Of a stretch of 64,000 nucleotides of DNA, positions 41,888 through 58,370 are shown in pieces. The translations under genes and the position numbers were made by a program. Every line of letters begins with the position of its first letter. The stretch's first letter is position 1. Source of the DNA: Symbiodinium natans (Eukaryota; Sar; Dinophyceae; Suessiales; Symbiodiniaceae); the NCBI GenBank assembly GCA_905221605.1, contig CAJNDS010000191.1, forward strand, positions 298,501-362,500, in the 5' to 3' direction. Under the pieces are notes generated by a model. The model made no database searches. It saw only the letters and a list, made by a program, of their open reading frames with translations, and was not told the DNA's origin.

Positions 41888-41890
41888 CCG

Positions 41891-42093
41891 TGTGAGCTGA
41901 GGGAGCTCCCACGGAGGCGGAGCTTACCGACTCTTTTACACGCCACACAAAGAACTGCGTAGTCTCAGGGATTGGTGCTGAGCACAGGTGCTTTGGCTAT
42001 ACATCTCGATTTTAAAGATGCCTGGCACAGCCTCCTACACAAAAGAGTCTCGAGCGGAAGGCCGTAGGCATCGAGATCACACTTGTCAACACA
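41891..42093 (-). repeat. 3' LTR of the Copia element
   Basis: 203 bp. Read in the element's direction it begins TGTGTTGACAAG and ends CAGCTCACA. It matches the other LTR except for two substitutions and the absence of five bases (AGAAG) near 41,942. Confidence 0.95.
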
Positions 42094-42095
42094 CT

Positions 42096-42191: not shown

Positions 42192-45100
42192 TTACATGCC
42201 TGTCCGGAGTTGCCTCCGCTGTTCATCGGCCCTTTGTATGAGATCAGCTCGGTAACGCGGGTTCAGCAGATTAAGATCAATTTCAAGTTCAGTGCGACCG
42301 CGCCATTGGCGATCTAAGTAGGCTTGACCCGCGCCTGGCACTCGCCAGTTGTCATCTACGATTTGTGTTTCCATGTCAGCATACATCAGAAGAGTCCTCC
42401 TTCTTCCGGTGAAAACACGAAGCTCGTAAGCACTATTTGTCCTCACTGGGGAAAACATCCTGCTCCGGGGACCAATATGCCACCGGACGACCACAGTGGA
42501 CCTCCCGCCCGACGGAGTTTCGTAAAAATCATCGCCGCCTGCAGGCGGCAAAAGAAACAGCGCACTTTCAGGCCCTCCCCACCCCGATCTCACCCTCTCG
42601 ATCTCGACCAGGGACATCTGTACAGGCACCGGCCAACCGTGGCGAAGGCGGAGTGGAGGATCCGGAAATACTACAGGGTCGAGGTAAGCAACGTCATCGA
42701 CGTACCTAAACTCTAAAGGTTCGCCCTGCGGTACAGCAGCATCATGGGCATTCAGCTGCGCTGCTTGAGCATCTAGCAACATCGCCCACTCCCGATCCCG
42801 AGCAGCTGCATAAGCATCACGTTCAGGCTCCGGCTCTGGAAACCTAACGGGCATGGGGGGTCGGTGTGGGGGCATAGGAGGTGGCAGCAACTGCTCATCG
42901 TCAGCGTCGTCCCTCGTAATCTCTGGTCGGCGATGGACCTCAAAAGGGAGATTATCCTCCTCAAGAGGTTCAAACTCTGGAGGCTCCGATTCTGGATCCG
43001 ACTCAGGCTCTCGCGCGGGCCTTGTAGTAAAGTAAACCCAAGCATGATCCGCAACCCTCCTAACTACCTCCCACACAGCAATCACTGAAATTGTCCACAA
43101 AATCAAAAGCAAGTAAAGGGTCCAATTGTCTGAGTCGTTAGACTCCGTCACCTCGACAACCTCACGGCTGCCCTCAGAAGGATTCACACAGAGCGAAATC
43201 ACCATGGAGCCCAAGATCTTAGCCAACCTTTGAACCTTGGAAGGCAAAACCGAGCCCTTAGCGGAGCCCATCCCAAGCAAACCCCGAAGCAAGTCCAGTC
43301 GCGGAGCTTGGAGAGGCTTGGTTCCAATATCCGCAGTATTAGAAGCACCTTCTAGGTGCATCACCTCCCATTGGAATAAGGCGACCTTTTCCCTTAACGC
43401 TCCTGCTCGAATTTTTAAATGTCTCGTCCGCCATGAATTCGTGTCAGCCGCCAGGACGCCAACAGCTGCTGAGTTGTCGTTCAACAGCACTTTCCGGTAG
43501 CTGCCTGCGGGATAAATCTCATCAAGAAGACAAGCTATGGCGTCGCCCATGTTGTGTCCCTGAATGGTGGAGATTAACTCCGCTTCACATGTCGATTGGG
43601 CAATAAACGGCTGACGACTCGACACCCAGGACACGCAACAACCACGCCAGTAAATAATCACGCATTCTTGAGACCTCGACCCCTCCGGGGCGAACCCCGC
43701 GTCAGTGTGAACCTCTAAAAGGCCTCCGTCTTGCAAAGCCTTCTGAATCTCAGCCCTCTTCTCAGGGAGGGTCATCGAGAATCTCAATCCCAAGGATGAC
43801 GTCGTGGCAAGGTAACCCAGGACTCCAAGCGCCGCCTTGCACGCTTCACGCGGCCTCCTTGACATAACAGACGCTATCCTTGAGCAGGAATACGCCACGT
43901 CAGGGCGGGTACGCACAGCAATCCACAAGAGTTCGCCCACCAGCTGCTGGCATTCTTTCAACGCATCGCTGTCAGGCTCCACCTCGCCCTCCTGGGGCAA
44001 ATGTCGGGCCAACGGCACCTGCTGCGGTACCACGTCAGAGTGACGATCCAACATGCCGCGGACATACGACGTTTGATGCACACACAACTCCTCACCCTTC
44101 TCATCCCAATGCAACTCCAAACCGTCAAAACGAAGCGGCTCACTTTCTCCAATCCTACCTACAAACTCAACAGCGCCGCAATCCCAAGTCTGCTTGATAC
44201 ACCCGTAGATCGCTGTCAAATACGGTTTTCGAGTAGCTGCCAAAAAATCATCTACATAAACAGCCAGCCAACCAACCAACACTCCGGTTTCAACAGCGTC
44301 CTCAGCCGAATCCACCAAGAAGATCAGCCAAACGCTGGAGTCAGACACACAGGCCTTGAAACGCAAAGCGCCCGCCTCAACCAGAACAACCATGACCCTC
44401 AAGGTATCATTGCGATGCAACGACCAATCGCGAGGGCTAGTATCTAGCCCATACACCGCCAACTCAACCTTCCACTTTTCGCGAGCTGACACCAGGCCCT
44501 TTCGAACCAACGATCGCGGCGGGACAGGGATCACAATCTGGGTCTTACCTCTTGCTGCAGCTCGAAGATCACGGGGCCGTGCCGGGGCATTCAAGAAGGC
44601 TGTTGACACATCCCACGTCGCAATGTCATGCTTGTGGAAAACAGCTTCAGCAAGCAGAACCCGGAGAAGACTCACGTCCACTCCTCCCGCGTAAGTAGCC
44701 ATCCGCCGCTCCAAACTGCTCTCGCCCACATTTGGCAGCGCATTGCCGCACACCACAATACGACATTTGTAACGGCCGCTCACGGCCTTTCGCGTGAAAA
44801 CAGTTTTTGACGGCACTTGAGTGACTTCCGCTCCCGACGCAACCCACGCAGCAATCGTGTCATCGTCCACCCGAATCAAAGCCTTCTTGGTCTCTAGCAA
44901 CGACGTTAACTCGGCTTGTGTAGCCCTTTCCCAATTTTCATCCCACTCGGCCATCACCTCCTCATTCGTGAACGTTCTGGTTTGTAGAAATTGAGGGAGC
45001 TCACAAGCATTCTCATCAGCATCGCTCGTGCTGGGGATCATTTGGCCTTCAAGTTTACAAGCACGCAACCAAGTCAGCTCTTGCTCAATCTGTTGCATCA

Positions 45101-45353
45101 CCTCAGTGACACTGGTCATTAGCTGGGCCGTCTCAGCAGCATCTGTGGAATTCTCTCCTCCACTTAGTTCTCCCTTAAGCTGCCTTGCTTCACGGCTGAG
45201 CAGCGCCTTCAAACCTCGCTGGCACAAGTCCGCATCAACCAACACGTGACCGCTATCCAAGCAATCATCAGACGGGGCTCTCAACGGCAGCTCCGAGGCG
45301 ATCATCCTACTTTCAACATCACACGTATCAACACAAGACAACGGGCGAAGCAT
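42192..45353 (-). CDS. Copia reverse transcriptase-RNase H with long C-terminal tail
   Basis: 1,053 codons from ATG at 45,353. About 128 residues of linker come first. The reverse transcriptase follows (~130-400), with the first catalytic Asp in WDVSTAFLN (D248) and YVDD at 366-369. A Copia RNase H follows (~545-681), with acidic residues D551, E590, D626 and D675 and the hallmark ending ADIGTKPL. All catalytic residues are present, so an active polymerase is plausible. After RNase H the protein continues for 372 residues: a hydrophobic segment at about 744-764 that looks membrane-spanning, then a Glu/Pro-rich stretch (~780-845), then about 200 residues I do not recognise. It overlaps the upstream integrase frame by 52 bases in the -1 frame and may be expressed by frameshifting or reinitiation. 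A sequence indel in the TTTTT run at about 45,371-45,375 is an alternative. Confidence 0.93.
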   Translation of the reverse strand: MLRPLSCVDTCDVESRMIASELPLRAPSDDCLDSGHVLVDADLCQRGLKALLSREARQLKGELSGGENSTDAAETAQLMTSVTEVMQQIEQELTWLRACKLEGQMIPSTSDADENACELPQFLQTRTFTNEEVMAEWDENWERATQAELTSLLETKKALIRVDDDTIAAWVASGAEVTQVPSKTVFTRKAVSGRYKCRIVVCGNALPNVGESSLERRMATYAGGVDVSLLRVLLAEAVFHKHDIATWDVSTAFLNAPARPRDLRAAARGKTQIVIPVPPRSLVRKGLVSAREKWKVELAVYGLDTSPRDWSLHRNDTLRVMVVLVEAGALRFKACVSDSSVWLIFLVDSAEDAVETGVLVGWLAVYVDDFLAATRKPYLTAIYGCIKQTWDCGAVEFVGRIGESEPLRFDGLELHWDEKGEELCVHQTSYVRGMLDRHSDVVPQQVPLARHLPQEGEVEPDSDALKECQQLVGELLWIAVRTRPDVAYSCSRIASVMSRRPREACKAALGVLGYLATTSSLGLRFSMTLPEKRAEIQKALQDGGLLEVHTDAGFAPEGSRSQECVIIYWRGCCVSWVSSRQPFIAQSTCEAELISTIQGHNMGDAIACLLDEIYPAGSYRKVLLNDNSAAVGVLAADTNSWRTRHLKIRAGALREKVALFQWEVMHLEGASNTADIGTKPLQAPRLDLLRGLLGMGSAKGSVLPSKVQRLAKILGSMVISLCVNPSEGSREVVEVTESNDSDNWTLYLLLILWTISVIAVWEVVRRVADHAWVYFTTRPAREPESDPESEPPEFEPLEEDNLPFEVHRRPEITRDDADDEQLLPPPMPPHRPPMPVRFPEPEPERDAYAAARDREWAMLLDAQAAQLNAHDAAVPQGEPLEFRYVDDVAYLDPVVFPDPPLRLRHGWPVPVQMSLVEIERVRSGWGGPESALFLLPPAGGDDFYETPSGGRSTVVVRWHIGPRSRMFSPVRTNSAYELRVFTGRRRTLLMYADMETQIVDDNWRVPGAGQAYLDRQWRGRTELEIDLNLLNPRYRADLIQRADEQRRQLRTGM

Positions 45354-48262
45354 CCCAACTCGCCAACTCCAAAAACTCGATCAAACCAATCCGGACCAGC
45401 GCTAACGTCATGCCCTTGCACGGCTTGAGCTGTTTCGGCTGAGCCATCGACGACCCAAGTAGGAGCTTCAATGAGTCTCCCCCCATCCAAGGCGCAAAGT
45501 CGCTCTCCGGGCTTTAGCATATCGGCTGCTACGTACTCCCCTTCGGGGCTCGCAGCAAAAAATGGCATACACTCCACGCAGCCTCGATCCATACACGCAC
45601 ACGCTTGAACCCTGAACCAGGTTTTGCTTATCGGAGGGTGACGTGCTTCGAAAACAGAATCATGGTTCCAGGTTTTGCTTATCGGGGGGTGACGTGCTTC
45701 GAAAGCAGAATCATGGTTCCAGGTTTTGCTTATCGGGGGGTGACGTGCTTCGAAAGCAGAATCATGGTTCCAGGTTTTGCTTATCGGGGGGTGACGTGCT
45801 TCGACATGACGCGCTCCCTCCTCCAGCATACCACCCTCTCCCCCCTGATGAGCATCATCAGCATCGTCCTCAGAAATGGCAAGGCACAACTGATTGGCCG
45901 AAGGCCCAGGAAGCACAAAACCAAACTCACTCAACGTGGCTTTATGCTCTGCTGTAGTTTTGTTTATTGCTAGCAAACTGTAAGAGACCAACAACAGAAC
46001 CCGGGACTGACCAAGAACCTGGGCCGAATGCCAGGATTTCGCATTGAGCTGAAGCGGCTCACGCTCCCGCAACCAACGCACCTGTCCAGCTTGCAACTCG
46101 CCGCCGGGCACCGCCCGAACTTCTACAGGTCCTGACAACTGATCACCCATTTGTAGCTGCGACCAAACGTACATCCCTGGTTTGGGAAGGCAAATTGGAT
46201 ACAGAACGTTGGAGTTGGGGATGTTATTGATGTCGCGGTGCGGGCCAACGTTTCCTTGCGTAAATAGGGCTACGGTGGTAAACGAAACCCCTGGCGCTAC
46301 GGTCCGGATGACAGCAGCCAGTAAGCGGGCAAACCCAGGGAGTCGTGTCATGTTTGTCAGTCCCACCTGCCCTCCATGCCGAAAGAGTCCCCAGGTACCC
46401 TGCATCCCATCCCTTGTAGTGGCAGAGCAACTCGCCTTGGATTTCACCCACGCTGAGGCCTTCAGGAACTCCAAAGCTCGATTGAAGGCAAAAGGTTGCG
46501 TGGCAGCTATCACTGCAGCATGTTCATCTTCAGACAAAAAATGGCTATGCAGACGGGCTAGCCTCGTCTTCAGCCTTATCCGTCGAGCGGGCTCCCTCTG
46601 ATGTGTGGGAGCCGCTGGGGCATCCGTAGACAACGGCGATTGAGCGCTGTGGGTGGTGGCAGCGGGAACATACGCTGGAGGGTTGGGGCACGTGAGAACG
46701 TCCCTAAAGATTATCGTGGTAGCAAAAAACTCCCCCTCATCTGTGCGAATCACCCACGCTTGCGGCACCCCATAAACGGGAGCCAGCACCACAGCTGGCA
46801 CCACCCGCTCTGACCACTGGTTTTTCAGCCTCCAAGATCTCTGACGCACATACACCTTGCACCCAAATGGCACCATCGGCACCACCGTCTGACCTAACCT
46901 TTTTAGGCCCTCCCGTAGCCGATGTTCTGTGGCCCAGCGCCACGCCAATGGCCACAAGTCCTTATCCAACTTCGTGGCCAAAAGATGGGTCCTAGTGAGT
47001 TGCTTGGCCATCGCAATGGAGCGTTCAGCACGGCCGTTGCTGCGCCAGTTATCCCCCAACGTGTTTGACAGCAAAATCTGCCGGGACGCCGCCCACTCCG
47101 CTAGGTGCTTGTTTTGAAACTCCAACCCTGCGTCCGAGTGGATACGTTGCACTTTGAAACCCAAAGAGTGGATTCTTGTCTCTATTTTTCGAATAGCAGT
47201 AAGAACTTCCTTTGAGGCTTTGGATTTCAGGGGTTCGCAAAAGGTAAGCTCAATCACCGGCAACTCGCTAAGGAGATGAACCCCTGCATCATCCATAGGT
47301 TTTGGGGGTCCTTTGGATTCAGGTTTTTCCTCCCTCTCGTCATCGCTGACGCCAAAAATATCATCCTTGTCCTGGTCCCCAATGAGATCTTGTACCCCTT
47401 CCTCACTATCGAGCCGCTCTGGCAAAGAACTCAAATCCTCACCAACACCAACCGGGCTCAGCCGCACCTTACGTACCCGCGAGGGGACCTCAAGTTCCTC
47501 ATCGCTAGTGGGAGCATAGGAAGGTGAACTCAGGATAGCGTCAGCACCTGATGCAACTGTAGCTCCTGGGTTCTGGAGACCTCCAGCTTCTGGGTTTTCA
47601 TGGCCTTTTGGGTCCTGGCTTTGGTCTCTGGTTTTCAAGGCCTTGAGGTCTGGGAGGACAAAAACTGCTTGCAGCATGTATTTCACTTTACTGATACGCT
47701 CGTCGTACCCCGACCGGAACAAACCAGCCAAATCAATCGCAAGCACGTTGACATCCGGGATCATCCCTCTACAGTGACGCTTGTCCCTTGACCTTCCCTC
47801 AACACAAGCCCGACATCGTCGCCAGTAAGGGACATGACCCTGCTCCAAGTGGCGTCTCATCGCCTCTTCATCCGAATGCTTTACCGCCTTTATTTGGACA
47901 CACTGGAAATCCTTGTCGAGGGACTCTTGAAGGGCCTCAACGATCGATTTCACCAAACCTGGAGCCCAGGCTCCCCACTCCCTTGAGTCCTCACTATCCT
48001 TGGTCCACGAGGCCTGGACGCCTGAAGTCGCAACTGTGAGCCACTGCAACGGGAGATTCGTTCCGATAGTCGTGGGCTTTACCCGCGTATGTCCCAGCGG
48101 ACCTTGATTGAGGTTTACCTTAGACCATCCGAGGTAACCTTGCAAGTCCTTCCACTCCTTAGTAGCAAGCAAACAAGGGCATCGACGATGATCCTCAATC
48201 TGGCGATACTCTACCGCGTCTCGAGGCTGCTCTACAAGGCCATACAGGGATCCCATGCCCAA
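45302..48262 (-). CDS. Copia integrase with an added 2OG-Fe(II) dioxygenase-like domain
   Basis: 986 codons if counted from a TTG at 48,262; no ATG is implied, and the frame is open further upstream, so it is probably entered from gag. Zinc-binding residues are H138, H143, C150 and C153. The integrase triad is D177, D377 and E413, with the usual 35 residues between the last two; about 120 acidic, low-complexity residues separate the first two more widely than normal. Around residues 590-770 is an extra domain: HRD at 675-677 in GPHRDINNIPN, a distal His in SWHSAQ (H745), and Arg in SRVLLLVSYSL (R754). This is the metal and 2-oxoglutarate pattern of Fe(II) dioxygenases, and the spelling resembles the TET/JBP group. 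Four 17-residue repeats follow (821-882), then a Cys-started segment (895-940) faintly like a Hint domain. The 3' end is in a different frame from reverse transcriptase. Confidence 0.9.
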   Translation of the reverse strand: MGMGSLYGLVEQPRDAVEYRQIEDHRRCPCLLATKEWKDLQGYLGWSKVNLNQGPLGHTRVKPTTIGTNLPLQWLTVATSGVQASWTKDSEDSREWGAWAPGLVKSIVEALQESLDKDFQCVQIKAVKHSDEEAMRRHLEQGHVPYWRRCRACVEGRSRDKRHCRGMIPDVNVLAIDLAGLFRSGYDERISKVKYMLQAVFVLPDLKALKTRDQSQDPKGHENPEAGGLQNPGATVASGADAILSSPSYAPTSDEELEVPSRVRKVRLSPVGVGEDLSSLPERLDSEEGVQDLIGDQDKDDIFGVSDDEREEKPESKGPPKPMDDAGVHLLSELPVIELTFCEPLKSKASKEVLTAIRKIETRIHSLGFKVQRIHSDAGLEFQNKHLAEWAASRQILLSNTLGDNWRSNGRAERSIAMAKQLTRTHLLATKLDKDLWPLAWRWATEHRLREGLKRLGQTVVPMVPFGCKVYVRQRSWRLKNQWSERVVPAVVLAPVYGVPQAWVIRTDEGEFFATTIIFRDVLTCPNPPAYVPAATTHSAQSPLSTDAPAAPTHQREPARRIRLKTRLARLHSHFLSEDEHAAVIAATQPFAFNRALEFLKASAWVKSKASCSATTRDGMQGTWGLFRHGGQVGLTNMTRLPGFARLLAAVIRTVAPGVSFTTVALFTQGNVGPHRDINNIPNSNVLYPICLPKPGMYVWSQLQMGDQLSGPVEVRAVPGGELQAGQVRWLREREPLQLNAKSWHSAQVLGQSRVLLLVSYSLLAINKTTAEHKATLSEFGFVLPGPSANQLCLAISEDDADDAHQGGEGGMLEEGARHVEARHPPISKTWNHDSAFEARHPPISKTWNHDSAFEARHPPISKTWNHDSVFEARHPPISKTWFRVQACACMDRGCVECMPFFAASPEGEYVAADMLKPGERLCALDGGRLIEAPTWVVDGSAETAQAVQGHDVSAGPDWFDRVFGVGELGCFARCLVLIRVMLKVG
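45617..45805 (-). repeat. 51-bp in-frame tandem repeat in the integrase-oxygenase frame
   Basis: Copies start at 45,617, 45,668, 45,719 and 45,770. Each encodes 17 residues (ARHPPISKTWNHDSAFE type). The copies are almost identical, so expansion is recent. Confidence 0.95.
45955..46495 (-). other. 2OG-Fe(II) dioxygenase-like domain inside the polyprotein (TET/JBP-like)
   Basis: This covers residues ~590-770 of the integrase frame. HxD (H675, D677), a distal His (H745) and an Arg nine residues later (R754) are in the order and spacing of a double-stranded beta-helix oxygenase. The Asn after the HRD motif (HRDINN) and the pattern R-V-L-L-L-V-x-Y after the distal His are also seen in TET/JBP enzymes. 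Family placement is from memory of motifs, not from a search. AlkB-like or other 2OG oxygenases are alternatives. Confidence 0.6.
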
Positions 48263-48945
48263 AACCTCGTTAGAGTCTTTGGCGGCATGCAGAAGCGCGG
48301 CGGTCCTGACCCACAGTAAGAGCTCTCCAGCTTGTCTAGCCTCTGACTCAGCGATGACGTAGCTTCTAGCACACGATCCAACACAGGCGCCATCTGTACC
48401 TGCATGAGCTGACTCATCAACGCGCCCAAGGCCTGAGTGTCAATTTGAACCCCTTGGTGCTGCATTGGGAAGTTCATTCCCAAGACCGGGCTTTCCGCAG
48501 CCATAGAGGCCACCCGAGCTTCCATATCGCTCTGCCGATCATCTGCTACAGCTTGCTCTCCCGCAGCAGATGCTCCTGTTGGAGCGCCCAGCCTAGAGTA
48601 GTCGGGAATCAACTCTTCAGCTGACGACTGCTCGTTCTCCCTGAATTGGACAACACGCTCCGCAGCCACGCCAGCCATATCAACTGCAGGCTCCCTGGCA
48701 CTGGGTCCCACCTCACCAGCTTCGGCTTGAGCCATTCCACTCCTCTGAAGATCATTATTCGTAACTTCGGTTGCCTCGTCCCCACCCTCCATCTGATCAT
48801 AGTTCGGCTCCAAAGACTGAGCAGAGAGCTCACTCGAAGCTCTACTGGCAGCCCCTGACTGAGCCCTTCGGAACTCCTGCTGCACTGCATCTGACCAGAA
48901 CGGGTTTGGCTCGGCTTGCGCTCCAGATCCAGGAGATTGTTCCAT
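48232..48945 (-). CDS. Copia gag N-terminal region
   Basis: 237 codons from ATG at 48,945, about 26 bases inside the 5' LTR. It is rich in Ala, Ser, Glu and Gln and begins with a PFWSDAVQQEFRR stretch (15-27) that I associate with gag starts of dinoflagellate Copia elements. A helical, likely coiled-coil segment follows near the end (about 185-216, LMSQLMQVQMAPVLDRVLE). No CCHC zinc knuckle or protease motif (D-S/T-G) is present before the frame stops, so the distal gag and protease region seems to be missing. It overlaps the integrase frame in the -1 register, and that frame is open for at least 170 bases upstream of the gag stop. Confidence 0.75.
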   Translation of the reverse strand: MEQSPGSGAQAEPNPFWSDAVQQEFRRAQSGAASRASSELSAQSLEPNYDQMEGGDEATEVTNNDLQRSGMAQAEAGEVGPSAREPAVDMAGVAAERVVQFRENEQSSAEELIPDYSRLGAPTGASAAGEQAVADDRQSDMEARVASMAAESPVLGMNFPMQHQGVQIDTQALGALMSQLMQVQMAPVLDRVLEATSSLSQRLDKLESSYCGSGPPRFCMPPKTLTRFWAWDPCMAL

Positions 48946-48955
48946 TGCGTCAAAG

Positions 48956-48970
48956 TTGGGCTCCTAACCC
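48956..48970 (-). promoter_or_regulatory. Primer-binding site, half-tRNA type
   Basis: On the minus strand, GGGTTAGGAGCCCAA lies one base inside the 5' LTR. Its complement, GGGCTCCTAACCC, matches the eukaryotic initiator tRNA-Met anticodon arm (GGGCTCATAACCC) except at one position. Drosophila copia primes with a cleaved initiator tRNA-Met half at the same arm. A tRNA-Arg with anticodon CCU would match the loop exactly and is the alternative primer. Confidence 0.65.
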
Positions 48971-48971
48971 G

Positions 48972-49179
48972 TGTGAGCTGAGGGAGCTCCCACGGAGGCG
49001 CAGCTTACCGACTCTTTTACACAGAAGGCCACACAAAGAACTGCGTAGTCTCAGGGATTGGTGCTGAGCACAGGCGCTTTGGCTATACATCTCGATTTTA
49101 AAGATGCCTGGCACAGCCTCCTACACAAAAGAGTCTCGAGCGGAAGGCCGTAGGCATCGAGATCACACTTGTCAACACA
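48972..49179 (-). repeat. 5' LTR of the Copia element
   Basis: 208 bp with TG...CA ends, containing the five bases missing from the other LTR. Promoter and polyadenylation signals are presumably inside it, but no TATA box is evident, as is usual in dinoflagellates. Confidence 0.95.
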
Positions 49180-49181
49180 CT

Positions 49182-53930: not shown

Positions 53931-56900
53931 AGCAAGGGGCCAGCTGATGCTATTGTGCGGCTCAGGCGCAGCAACGGGCCCAACTGATGCTCATGATGCT
54001 CGCCTTGTCGGGCCGCTCAGGCCAAGCAAGGGGCCAGCTGATGCTGCCGATGCTCGCTTTGTGCGGCTCAGGCGCAGCAAGGGGCCCAACTGATGCTGAT
54101 GATGCTCGCCTTGTCGGGCCGCTAGGCCCAGCAAGGGGCCAGCTGATGCTGCTGATGCTCGCTTTGTGCGGCTCAGGCGCAGCAAGGGGCCCAACTGATG
54201 ATGCTCATGATGCTCGCCTTTTCGGGCCGCTCAGGCCAAGCAAGGGGCCAGCTGATGCTGCCGATGCTCGCTTTGTGCGGCTCAGGCGCAGCAAGGGGCC
54301 CAACTGATGCTCATGATGCTCGCCTTGTCGGGCCGCTCAGGCCCAGAAAGGGGCCAGCTGATGCTGCTGATGCTCGCTTTGTGCGGCTCAGGCGCAGCAA
54401 GGGGCCCAACTGATGCTGATGATGCTCGCCTTGTCGGGCCGCTCAGGCCCAGCAAGGGGCCAGCTGATGCTGCTGATGCTCGCCTTGTCGGGCCGCTCAG
54501 GCCCAGCAAGGGGCCAGCTGATGATGCTTACCTTGTCGGGCCGCTCAGGCCCAGCAAGGGGCCAGCTGATGCTACTGATGCTCGCTTTGTGCGGCTCACG
54601 CGCAGCAAGGGGCCCAACTGATGCTGATGATGCTCGCCTTGTCGGGCCGCTCAGGCCCAGCAAGGGGCCAGCCAATGCTGTTGATGCTCGCTTTGTGCGG
54701 CTCAGGCGCAGCAAGGGGCCCAGCTGATGCTGATGATGCTCGCCTTGTCGGGCCGCTCAGGCCCAGCAAGGGGCCAGCTGATGCTGCTGATGCTCGCTTT
54801 GTGCGGCTCAGGCACAGCAAGGGGCCCAACTGATGCTCATGCTGCTCGCCTTGCTCAGGCCCAGCAAGGGGCCAGCTGATGCTGCTGATGCTCGCTTTGT
54901 GCGGCTCAGGCGCAGCAAGGGGCCCAACTGATGCTGATGATGCTCGCCTTGTCGGGCCGCTCAGGCTCAGCAAGGAGCCAGCTGATGCTGCTGATGCTCG
55001 CTTTGTGCGGCTCAGGCGCAGCAAGGGGCCCAACTGATGCTGATGATGCTCGCCTTGTCGGGCCGCTCAGGCCCAGCAAGGGGCCAGCTGATGCTGCTGA
55101 TGCTAGCTTTGTGCGGCTCAGGCGCAGCAAGGGGCCCAACTGATGCTCATGATGCTCGCCTTGTCGGGCCGAACAGGCCCAGCAAGGGGCCAGCTGATGC
55201 TGCTGATGCTCGATTTGTGCGGCTCAGGCGCAGCAAGGGGCCCAACTGATGCTCATGATGCTCGCCTTGTCGGGCCGCTCAGGCCCAGAAAGGGGCCAGC
55301 TAATGCTGCCGATGCTCGCTTTGTGCGGCTCAGGCGCAGCAAGGGGCCCAACTGATGCTGATGATGCTCGCATTGTCGGGCCGCTCAGGCCCAGAAAGGG
55401 GCCAGCTGATGCTGCCGATGCTAGCTTTTTTTGTGCGGCTCAGGCGCAGCAAGGGGCCCAACTGATGCTGATGATGCTCGCCTTGTCGGGCCGCTCAGGC
55501 CCAGCACAGGGCCAGCTGCTCGCTCTGTGCGGCTCAGGCGCAGCAAGGGGCCCAACTGATGCTGATGATGCTCGTCTTGTCGGGCCGCTCAGGCCCAGCT
55601 GATGCGGCGCAGCAAGGGGCCAACTGATGCTGATGACGCTCGTCTTGTTGGGCCGCACAGCCCCAGCAAGGGGCCAGCTGATGCTGCTGATGCTCGCTCT
55701 GTGCGGTTCAGGCGCAGCAAGGGGCCCAACTGATGCTCATGCTGCTCGCCTTGTCGGGCCGCTCAGGCCCAGAAAGGGGCCAGCAAATGCTGCCGATGCT
55801 CGCTTTGCGCGGCTCAGGCGCAGCAAGGGGCCCAACTGATGCTGATGATGCTCGCCTTGTCGGGCCGCTCAGGCCCAGCAAGGGGCCAGCTGATGCTGCC
55901 GATGCTCGCTTTGTGCGCTTTGTGCGGCTCAGGCGCAGCAAGGGGCCCAACTGATGCTCATGATGCTCGCCTTGTCGGGCCGCTCGGGCCCAGAAAGGGG
56001 CCAGTGATGCTGCTGATGCTCGCTTTGTGCGGCTCAGGCGCAGCAAGGGGCCCAACTGATGCTGATGATGCTCGCCTTGTCGGGCCGCTCAGGCCCAGCA
56101 AGGGGCCAGCTGATGCTGCTGATGCTCGCTTTGTGCGGCTCAGGCGCAAGGATGCTCGCCTCGTCGGGCCGCTCAGGCCCAGCAAATGCTCGCTCTGTGC
56201 GGCTCAGGCGCAGCAAGGGGCCCAACTGATGCTCATGCTGCTCGCCTTGTCGGGCCGCTCAGGCCCAGAAAGGGGCCAGCAGATGCTGCCGATGCTTTGT
56301 GCGGCTCAGGCGCAGCAAGGGGCCCAACTGATGCTGATGATGCTCGTCTTTTTGGGCCGCTCAGGCCCAGCAAGGGGCCAGCTGATGCTGCTGATGCTCG
56401 CTTTGTGCGGTGCTCGCCTTGTCGGGCCGCTCAGGCCCAGCAAGGGGCCCCAGCTGATGCTGCTGATGCTCGCTTTGTGCAGCTCAGGCGCAGCAACGGG
56501 CCCAACTGATGCTGATGATGCTCGTCTTTTTGGGCCGCTCAGGCCCAGCAAGGGGCCAGCTGATGCTGCTGATGCTCGCTTTGTGCGGCTCAGGCGCAGC
56601 AAGGGGCCCAACTGATGCTGATGATGCTCGCCTTGTCGGGCCGCTCAGGCCCAGCAAGGGGCCAGCTGATGCTGCTGATGCTCGCTTTGTGTGGCTCAGG
56701 CGCAGCAAGGGGCCCAACTGATGCTGATGATGCTCGCCTTGTCGGGCCGCTCAAGGCCCAGCAAGGGGCCAGCTGATGCTGCTGATGCTCGCTTTGTGCG
56801 GCTCAGGCGCAGCAAGGGGCCCAACTGATGCTGATCTGATGCTCGCTTTGTGCGGCTCAGGCCCAGCAAGGGGCCCCAACTGATGCTGATGATGCTCGCC

Positions 56901-57793
56901 TTGTCGGGCCGCTCAGGCCCAGCAAGGGGCCAGCTGATGCTGCTGATGCTCGCTTTGTGCGGCTCAGGCGCAGCAAGGGGCCCAACTGATGCTGATGATG
57001 CTCGCCTTGTCGGGCCGCTCAGGCCCAGCAAGGGGCCAGCTGATGCTGCTGATGCTCGCTTTGTGCGGCTCAGGCGCAGCAAGGGGCCCAACTGATGCTG
57101 ATGATGCTCGCCTTGTCGGGCCGCTCAGGCCCAGCAAGGGGCCAGCTGATGCTGCTGATGCTCGACTTGTGCGGCTCAGGCGCAGCAAGGGGCCCAACTG
57201 ATGCTGATGATGCTCGCCTTGTCGGGCCGCTCAGGCCCAGCAAGCGGGCCAGCTGATGCTGCTGATGCTCGCTTTGTGCGGCTCAGGCGCAGCAAGGGGC
57301 CCAACTGATGCTGATGATGCTCGCCTTGTCGGGCCGCTCAGGCCCAGCAAGGGGCCAGCTGATGCTGCTGATGCTCGCTTTGTGCGGCTCAGGCGCAGCA
57401 AGGGGCCCAACTGATGCTGATGATGCTTGCCTTGTCGGGCCGCTCAGGCCCAGCAAGGGGCCAGCTGATGCTGCTGATGCTCGACTTGTGCGGCTCAGGC
57501 GCAGCAAGGGGCCCAACTGATGCTGATGATGCTCGCCTTGTCGGGCCGCTCAGGCCCAGCAAGGGGCCAGCTGATGCTGCTGATGCTCGGTTTGTGCGGC
57601 TCAGGCGCAGCAAGGGGCCCAACTGATGCTGATGATGCTCGCCTTGTCGGCCGCAGGCCCAGCAAGGGGTGCTGATGCTGATGTGCAGGCGCAGCAGGGG
57701 CCCAACTGATGCTGCTGATGCTCGCTTGTTGGCAAGCACTGATGCTGCAATTTTGTGCGGCTCAGGCGCAGCAAGGGGCCACTGATGCTGATG
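53931..57793. repeat. 106-bp dimeric satellite, about 36 copies
   Basis: Each unit has two related halves. The 55-bp half starts GGGGCCCAACTGATGCTGAT and contains CTTGTCGGGCCGCTCAGGCC. The 51-bp half starts GGGGCCAGCTGATGCTGCTG and contains TTTGTGCGGCTCAGGCGCAG. The halves descend from one ~53-bp monomer. The period is not a multiple of three, and every unit brings stops, so the many short Ala/Arg/Gly-rich frames are artefacts. Several copies lack part of a half (54,850, 55,510-55,610, 56,150-56,190, 56,400), and both ends decay (57,640-57,790). Confidence 0.98.
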
Positions 57794-58370
57794 CCCTAAA
57801 CCCCTAAACCCCAAACTCTGCAATCTCCATCTTTACCCCCCCCCCCCCCCCGGCAGTCCGACCAGTCACGACGCTGGGGATCCTGCAGCTCGTGGGCTTT
57901 TTGGGATGCTCAAGGACTTCCGAGAAGTTCTAAACCCTGAACCCTAAACCCGAAGCCCCGAAACCCGAAACCCTAAGCCCTAGGCCCTGAACCCTGCTCT
58001 TCGCCCGAAGGAGTCCCAGGAAGCACAAAGTCGAGGCTCTCCCTGAGACCGGCTCGCTGTCTCCAATGGAAGGCTCGGCACCCACTACAGCAGGAATTTC
58101 TATGAGAGGCTACCTGCAGATTATTACATATCATATGCCTATTACGATATTTTAAAGTATTTTTTGTACAAAATACTATTGTACATCAGTATAAACATTT
58201 TTGACATATTCATAGATTCAACCCTAAGCCTAAACCCAAGACAATTCCCCTTCGATTCGTAATTGGTTTCCTCCTTGGCTTGCCGCTGCTTCTCCAACTC
58301 AGACGGCTTGAGAGGCCTGAGGCCGCAACATGGAGTCCCCACCCTAAACCCTAACCTCTCTTACTACATA
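57794..58370. other. No gene recognised
   Basis: A C run near 57,834-57,852, CCCTAAA-like scraps and an AT-rich inverted patch around 58,145-58,190. Confidence 0.5.

Follow-up and report, generated by a model that had tools for sequence, protein, structure and literature searches.

A probable TET/JBP-like 2OG-Fe(II) oxygenase domain in the polyprotein of a Copia-type retrotransposon from Symbiodinium natans

Introduction

Could a retrotransposon oxidise the bases of its own DNA? The question is raised by a locus of the dinoflagellate Symbiodinium natans, within a stretch of 64,000 nucleotides (the window; contig CAJNDS010000191.1 of assembly GCA_905221605.1, positions 298,501 to 362,500 of the forward strand) whose minus strand carries, from 49181 to 41888, a Copia-type long terminal repeat (LTR) retrotransposon. 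A preliminary description of the window, made from its letters, had proposed that the polyprotein of this element holds, between integrase and reverse transcriptase (RT), a TET/JBP-like dioxygenase dependent on 2-oxoglutarate (2OG) and Fe(II). Our analysis favours, with a probability of roughly 0.55, the view that the element is one of a large group of LTR retrotransposons encoding a nucleic-acid-type 2OG-Fe(II) oxygenase near TET/JBP that may oxidise their own DNA. This reading is built on features computed here: the predicted fold, the residues that would bind iron, the Arg, a TET-like Asn five residues past the first His (H+5), the purifying selection on the domain and its position within the polyprotein.

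A conserved domain family

The candidate residues lie where the preliminary description placed them, H675-R-D677, H745 and R754 being read in a 986-aa frame (48262-45302, minus strand) that is open throughout and holds both integrase and oxygenase domain, with the integrase upstream and the RT downstream in the next, overlapping frame. The domain is indeed found in the span first proposed, 45955-46495, but the modelled unit is larger (Table 1). The residues are kept, as had been claimed, yet this counts for little by itself: with the motif defined as HxD, a His 40-110 residues later and an Arg 8-14 residues past that His, the set turned up in 861 of 20,000 shuffled versions of the domain and, when the entire frame was shuffled, in 3,064 of 5,000. 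Taken alone, the motif set is weak evidence, hardly more than chance, and because shuffling produces it so often the case for an oxygenase rests on conservation in relatives.

Among 5.8 billion proteins, 4,157, 3,400 and 7,995 candidates with short words in common were scored, and only four relatives were obtained among them. One (P0001) is 97% identical and another (P0002) covers 40% of the domain query. The nearest named relative (P0004; 'RE1, partial') is an integrase-domain-RT protein of Symbiodinium necroappetens with 47% identity over 97% of the query region, in which PHRD, W-H-x-A-Q and SRVLL are identical to the window domain. The fourth (P0005) is described below. Scans of viral contigs with the domain, the integrase, the RT and a three-row domain alignment gave no relatives.

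Relatives were far more numerous in the window's own assembly (759,417,921 bases in 2,543 contigs), where scoring covered 150 of 1,148 candidate places. Every one of the 150 matched at E<=0.01, 148 without a stop inside the match, and about half (74) lay in open frames of >2,000 aa, the longest being 3,587 aa. The 87 loci collected, some of which are the same places, gave 75 unique domain sequences, that of the window among them, and the expectation that related elements would keep the HxD, His and Arg was borne out in 71 to 75 of these (Table 1). The distal His is replaced in one of them (L012) and falls in gaps in two others, one of which (L004) reads differently past that point while the other (L073) is a domain call that ends too soon, His and Arg being present further on. 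In L012 it is Arg that replaces this iron-binding His, in a frame that is otherwise open. After the Arg, an aromatic residue or His stands at +6 in 65 copies and at +7 in 6. Columns invariant across 26 diverse members are G67, G72, G73, G76, H117, D119, W142, G168, H187 and F224, and those invariant across 39 members are G67, G72, H117, D119, G168 and H187.

Fold and family assignment

An AlphaFold2 model built from a 39-row alignment was confident, with a predicted local distance difference test (pLDDT) score of 92.4 and a predicted template modelling score of 0.88; the model from the single sequence was useless (pLDDT 33.8). Foldseek placed CcTet, the Coprinopsis TET enzyme, first among the 50 matches listed, and VIA-align placed NgTet1, the Naegleria TET enzyme, at the top of its 50 listed matches in a tie with FTO; these VIA-align matches are 2OG oxygenases, nearly all of them acting on nucleic acids. 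The structure prediction thus returned TET enzymes first and not an unrelated fold, and three features of the 2OG-Fe(II) superfamily are present: the facial triad, a basic residue past the distal His and, in the model, the double-stranded beta-helix.

A Protein Data Bank (PDB) search with three close sequences gave weak sulfotransferase matches only (E 0.19 and above), a 26-row profile gave TET2 at 0.54 followed by isocitrate dehydrogenase kinase at 0.91, and the PDB matches of a further sequence profile were all to TET2. At the place aligned with H+5 (aligned HRDLHN) TET2 has Asn, as do 74 of the 75 family members; we take this Asn to be a base-contacting residue in TET2, and the aromatic residue past the Arg is presumably the counterpart of a base-stacking residue in TET2 and NgTet1. 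According to a survey of fungal elements, Gly331 of CcTET, five residues past His326, serves recognition of N6-methyladenine (PMC12730594).

In Pfam, the window domain alone had no match, and Tet_JBP reached E values of about 4.6e-5 for two other loci (L051 and L053). No AlkB-type family was among the 14 Pfam families matching any of the 26 diverse members, in a search whose HMMER filters lose weak matches. Membership of AlkB is not favoured by sequence, while the fold is compatible with an AlkB-type enzyme.

Taken together, the alignments and the model indicate that the domain is probably a 2OG-Fe(II) oxygenase of nucleic-acid type, nearest to TET/JBP. The first assignment as TET/JBP-like stands as regards fold and residues, with TET enzymes first among the structures and NgTet1 tied with FTO, but not as membership of TET/JBP proper by the Pfam cut-off. 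That the HxD, His and Arg arose by chance in a linker between integrase and RT can be practically discounted: the frequency of the set in shuffled domains and the poor single-sequence model would fit such an origin, against which stand the 150 genome matches, the family alignments, the TET2 profile matches in the PDB, the confident model with its fold matches and the kept residues. We therefore reject it on the strength of the conserved family and the model.

Selection on the domain

The ratio of nonsynonymous to synonymous substitution rates (dN/dS) was estimated for 66 of the 87 loci (all except L004, L005, L071, L073, L051-L065, L086 and L087). No finite dS was obtained for 1,611 of 2,145 pairs, and pairs past a dS of about 1.5 were not used. 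Ratios were 0.04 for L039-L082 (dS 0.51), 0.08 for L079-L080 (dS 0.66) and 0.07 for L047-L080 (dS 0.73), the last being non-independent of the second. The ratio was 0.30 for L048-L077 (dS 0.21), and the median over 105 very recent pairs (dS 0.02-0.1) was 0.27. These codon comparisons indicate that the domain is under purifying selection and has been kept functional as the lineages diverged.

The element in the window and the architecture of other carriers

The window copy has LTRs and an integrase upstream of an RVT_2-type RT, as in Copia-type elements, with both the rve and the RVT_2 matches below their cut-offs (Table 1); the weak rve match covers residues 342-400 of the 986-aa frame. TATAT is found on both flanks and may be a 5-bp target duplication, which is not beyond doubt because the insertion site is an A+T repeat.

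Table 1 Features of the retrotransposon in the window, with the oxygenase domain first
Feature	Position	Strand	Remarks
TET/JBP-like 2OG-Fe(II) dioxygenase domain (probable), 231 aa, residues 559-789	45896..46588	-	Family alignments, AlphaFold2 model, fold matches
H675-x-D677, predicted iron ligands	46232..46240	-	H in 75/75 and D in 75/75 unique copies
N680, five residues past first His	46223..46225	-	N in 74/75 unique copies
H745, predicted distal iron ligand	46028..46030	-	72/75 unique copies
R754, candidate 2OG anchor	46001..46003	-	71/75 unique copies
5' LTR	48969..49181	-	206/208 aligned bases identical to other LTR, plus one 5-nt indel
Gag-like frame, 237 aa, shortened	48232..48945	-	Compared with relative P0005
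Methyltransferase-like segment, C-terminal end (LVEQPRD...NQGPLGHTRVKPTTIGTN)	48014..48262	-	Corresponds to P0005 and L087; name from motif only
Integrase (zinc-binding part by eye; catalytic core)	46688..47881	-	rve E 0.0088, NCBIfam IS481 5.6e-5, both below cut-off
51-bp tandem repeat, 3.7 copies, in frame	45617..45804	-	Inside polyprotein (EARHPPISKTWNHDSAF)
RT-RNase H frame, 1053 aa	42192..45353	-	RVT_2 E 1.8e-6, below cut-off; RNase H by eye
3' LTR	41888..42095	-	Preceded by purine-rich tract (GGGGGAGAG)

Among 47 loci with enough flanking sequence (L001-L030, L051-L065, L086 and L087; 40 short loci lay outside this check, and L004 and L005 overlap), integrase or RT was recognised in the same frame as the domain at 33, using profiles of the integrase and RT of the window and P0004. 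Within L001-L030, integrase was found upstream in the same frame at 27 of 30 loci, RT downstream at 23, both at 20 and one or more at all 30; at the three loci lacking integrase the open frame begins only 28-90 residues ahead of the domain. Of the other 17, three (L054, L056 and L086) had both. The most complete arrangement is that of L086, a single 2,964-aa frame with zinc-finger gag, protease, integrase, oxygenase domain, RT and RNase H, in which integrase and RT were identified by profile and the rest by eye, the zinc knuckle having a sub-threshold Pfam match as well.

In the window, the frame that holds the domain and the one that holds the RT share 52 bases (45302-45353), read in different phases; P0004 is a single frame across domain and RT, and the terminal residues of P0002 are those of the window's domain frame. 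About four units of the 51-bp repeat are present both in the window and in P0002, compared with three in P0001. The tail of the RT frame after RNase H (about 350 aa, 42195-43247) contains, by eye, a hydrophobic segment and gave no Pfam match above cut-off (only UstYa, 0.024); in L086, too, RNase H is followed by a hydrophobic segment as judged by eye. No Pfam match was found for the gag-like frame. Elsewhere in the window, G+C is 0.64-0.65 at 54001-58000, compared with 0.38-0.55 in other 2-kb steps, and a 258-aa frame within that interval had no Pfam match above cut-off.

Methyltransferase-like segments in relatives

Some relatives carry a further segment that may bear on base modification. 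In P0005 a zinc-finger gag, a protease and a methyltransferase-like segment lie, by eye, ahead of the integrase, and the window copy lacks most of that region; Pfam gave only zf-CCCH_4 (E 0.51) for P0005. The corresponding segments of P0005 and L087, 34% identical, share GPPCRTxSVxR, EQP and KPTTI and are placed by eye between protease and integrase, the integrase of L087 being confirmed neither by Pfam nor by the integrase profiles. A different segment, with LPCTKWC, directly precedes the oxygenase in L051 and L053, and here the oxygenase precedes, rather than follows, an integrase-like region recognised by eye (only DDE_3, 0.038, in L051). Seven places (L057-L063; frames of 1212-1299 aa) have an equal Tet_JBP score of 21.7 bits, and in L057 a zinc-knuckle frame seen by eye is followed by the oxygenase and then by an LFAG...LPC...ENP methyltransferase-like segment. 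By their motifs we take all three kinds of segment to resemble C5-methyltransferases. In Pfam, the P0005 and L087 segments matched neither DNA_methylase nor any other family at E<=10, and in the PDB there was no match for a two-row P0005/L087 profile or for the L057 segment. If the orders read by eye are right, the oxygenase would have been captured or shuffled more than once.

Possible function

The oxygenase may be delivered into the particle together with integrase and RT; inside the particle, or where the element inserts, it could hydroxylate a pyrimidine methyl group in the element's own DNA, converting thymine to 5-hydroxymethyluracil (5-hmU) or 5-methylcytosine (5mC) to 5-hydroxymethylcytosine, so that new copies might escape or tune host silencing. 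One study describes two Symbiodiniaceae as uniformly rich in 5mC, and reports for Breviolum minutum that 5-hmU is enriched over most repeats and that Copia and Maverick elements are among the least accessible (PMC11071213). With DNA rich in 5mC and repeats marked by 5-hmU, both the substrates and a reason for such an activity would exist.

Several results weigh against a TET/JBP-like, DNA-oxidising enzyme of Copia-type elements. The Tet_JBP (PF12851) cut-off of 34.9 bits was reached at none of 27 genome places (best 26.7), and among 14 named genomes used as controls one (E. coli) also gave a Tet_JBP match below cut-off. Foldseek TM-scores by query length were only 0.16-0.43 among the 50 matches listed. 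In VIA-align, NgTet1 is 0.9 Z ahead of FTO, which the tool counts as a tie, and its lead over ALKBH5, ABH2 and AlkB is 1.1-1.2 Z. No extra DNA-binding domain was recognised. In the window lineage the Arg-to-Tyr distance is 7, not 6, the register being shifted by one residue, and the Arg of both this lineage and P0004 is displaced by one residue towards the His, making its role as 2OG anchor less sure in both. Compared with P0005, the window copy also lacks much of gag and protease. Finally, 14 of the 47 loci (L051-L053, L055, L057-L065 and L087) had neither integrase nor RT by profile, and the Copia type is accordingly not shown for every carrier.

Other activities have to be set beside this one. 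That the enzyme demethylates RNA or oxidises RNA bases, with the element's genomic RNA rather than DNA as its target, is unlikely, though it deserves to be taken seriously; the TET2 matches of the profiles, the lack of AlkB among the matched Pfam families and the TET2-like Asn at H+5 speak against it. A protein hydroxylase (aspartyl/asparaginyl or prolyl) directed at capsid, RT or a host protein is clearly improbable. Among the 26 diverse members, 5 matched Asp_Arg_Hydrox (best 9.6e-5), whose proteins are hydroxylases of other proteins within the same superfamily, whereas 3 matched Tet_JBP (best 1.4e-4), a count that also tells against TET/JBP; L006 matched at residues 570-689 with E 0.0012, and a proline 3-hydroxylase was within the first 13 Foldseek matches. 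Opposed to this are the predominance of nucleic-acid oxygenases in VIA-align and the TET2 identity of the PDB profile matches. The shifted Arg register of the window lineage and the Arg of L012 in place of the distal His would suit a non-catalytic relic kept for structure or nucleic-acid binding, which is very improbable given that the iron ligands persist in 72-75 of 75 unique copies despite about 25% identity and that three unsaturated pairs have dN/dS of 0.04-0.08.

Oxidation of the element's own DNA remains our preferred reading. A wider extension of it, which we consider doubtful, is that retroelement oxygenases, some paired with a methyltransferase-like segment, write 5-hmU or oxidise 5mC on repeats and are a main source of modified bases; if true, the modified-base mark of dinoflagellate DNA would be made by transposons themselves.

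Comparison with known systems

TET/JBP enzymes (NgTet1, CcTet, TET2 and JBP1) include the first structural matches of the window family, which shares with them the HxD, distal His and Arg and, with TET2, the Asn at H+5. The family differs in falling below the Pfam cut-off, in its compact size of 231 aa and in its place within the polyprotein of an LTR retrotransposon. TET/JBP-type oxygenases are likewise carried by fungal mobile elements of several lineages, there DNA transposons and Helitrons; this 2025 survey reports no retrotransposon with such an oxygenase (PMC12730594). Our own literature search, which covered few subscription journals and no preprints, found no report of a TET-like domain in a retrotransposon.

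An LTR retrotransposon with a 2OG oxygenase and a proposed role against host surveillance is described for Phalaenopsis, where an AlkB-type (2-oxoglutarate-dependent dioxygenase) domain active on RNA in vitro occupies an additional frame of a 25-kb Ty3/Gypsy element in two orchids (PMC9289625). Unlike it, the window family is TET-like, lies in a Copia-type Pol and spans divergent lineages. SymbioLINE and SymbioDIRS are dinoflagellate retroelements that also captured base-modifying enzymes, in their case DNA methyltransferases (DNMT) in LINE and DIRS elements; the paper states that Copia elements are without a DNMT domain (PMC5890265). The text of the Breviolum minutum 5-hmU study contains neither 'JBP' nor 'dioxygenase' and has thymidine hydroxylases only in its references (PMC11071213).

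Against this background, a domain that is probably TET/JBP-like, or a very near relative, occurs in the Pol of LTR elements in many divergent copies of a single genome, intact and apparently under selection. The family supplies candidate enzymes, so that the maker of 5-hmU and the self-marking of elements become bench questions, and these retrotransposons would join the known carriers of base-modifying enzymes as a candidate source of the unusual bases in dinoflagellate DNA.

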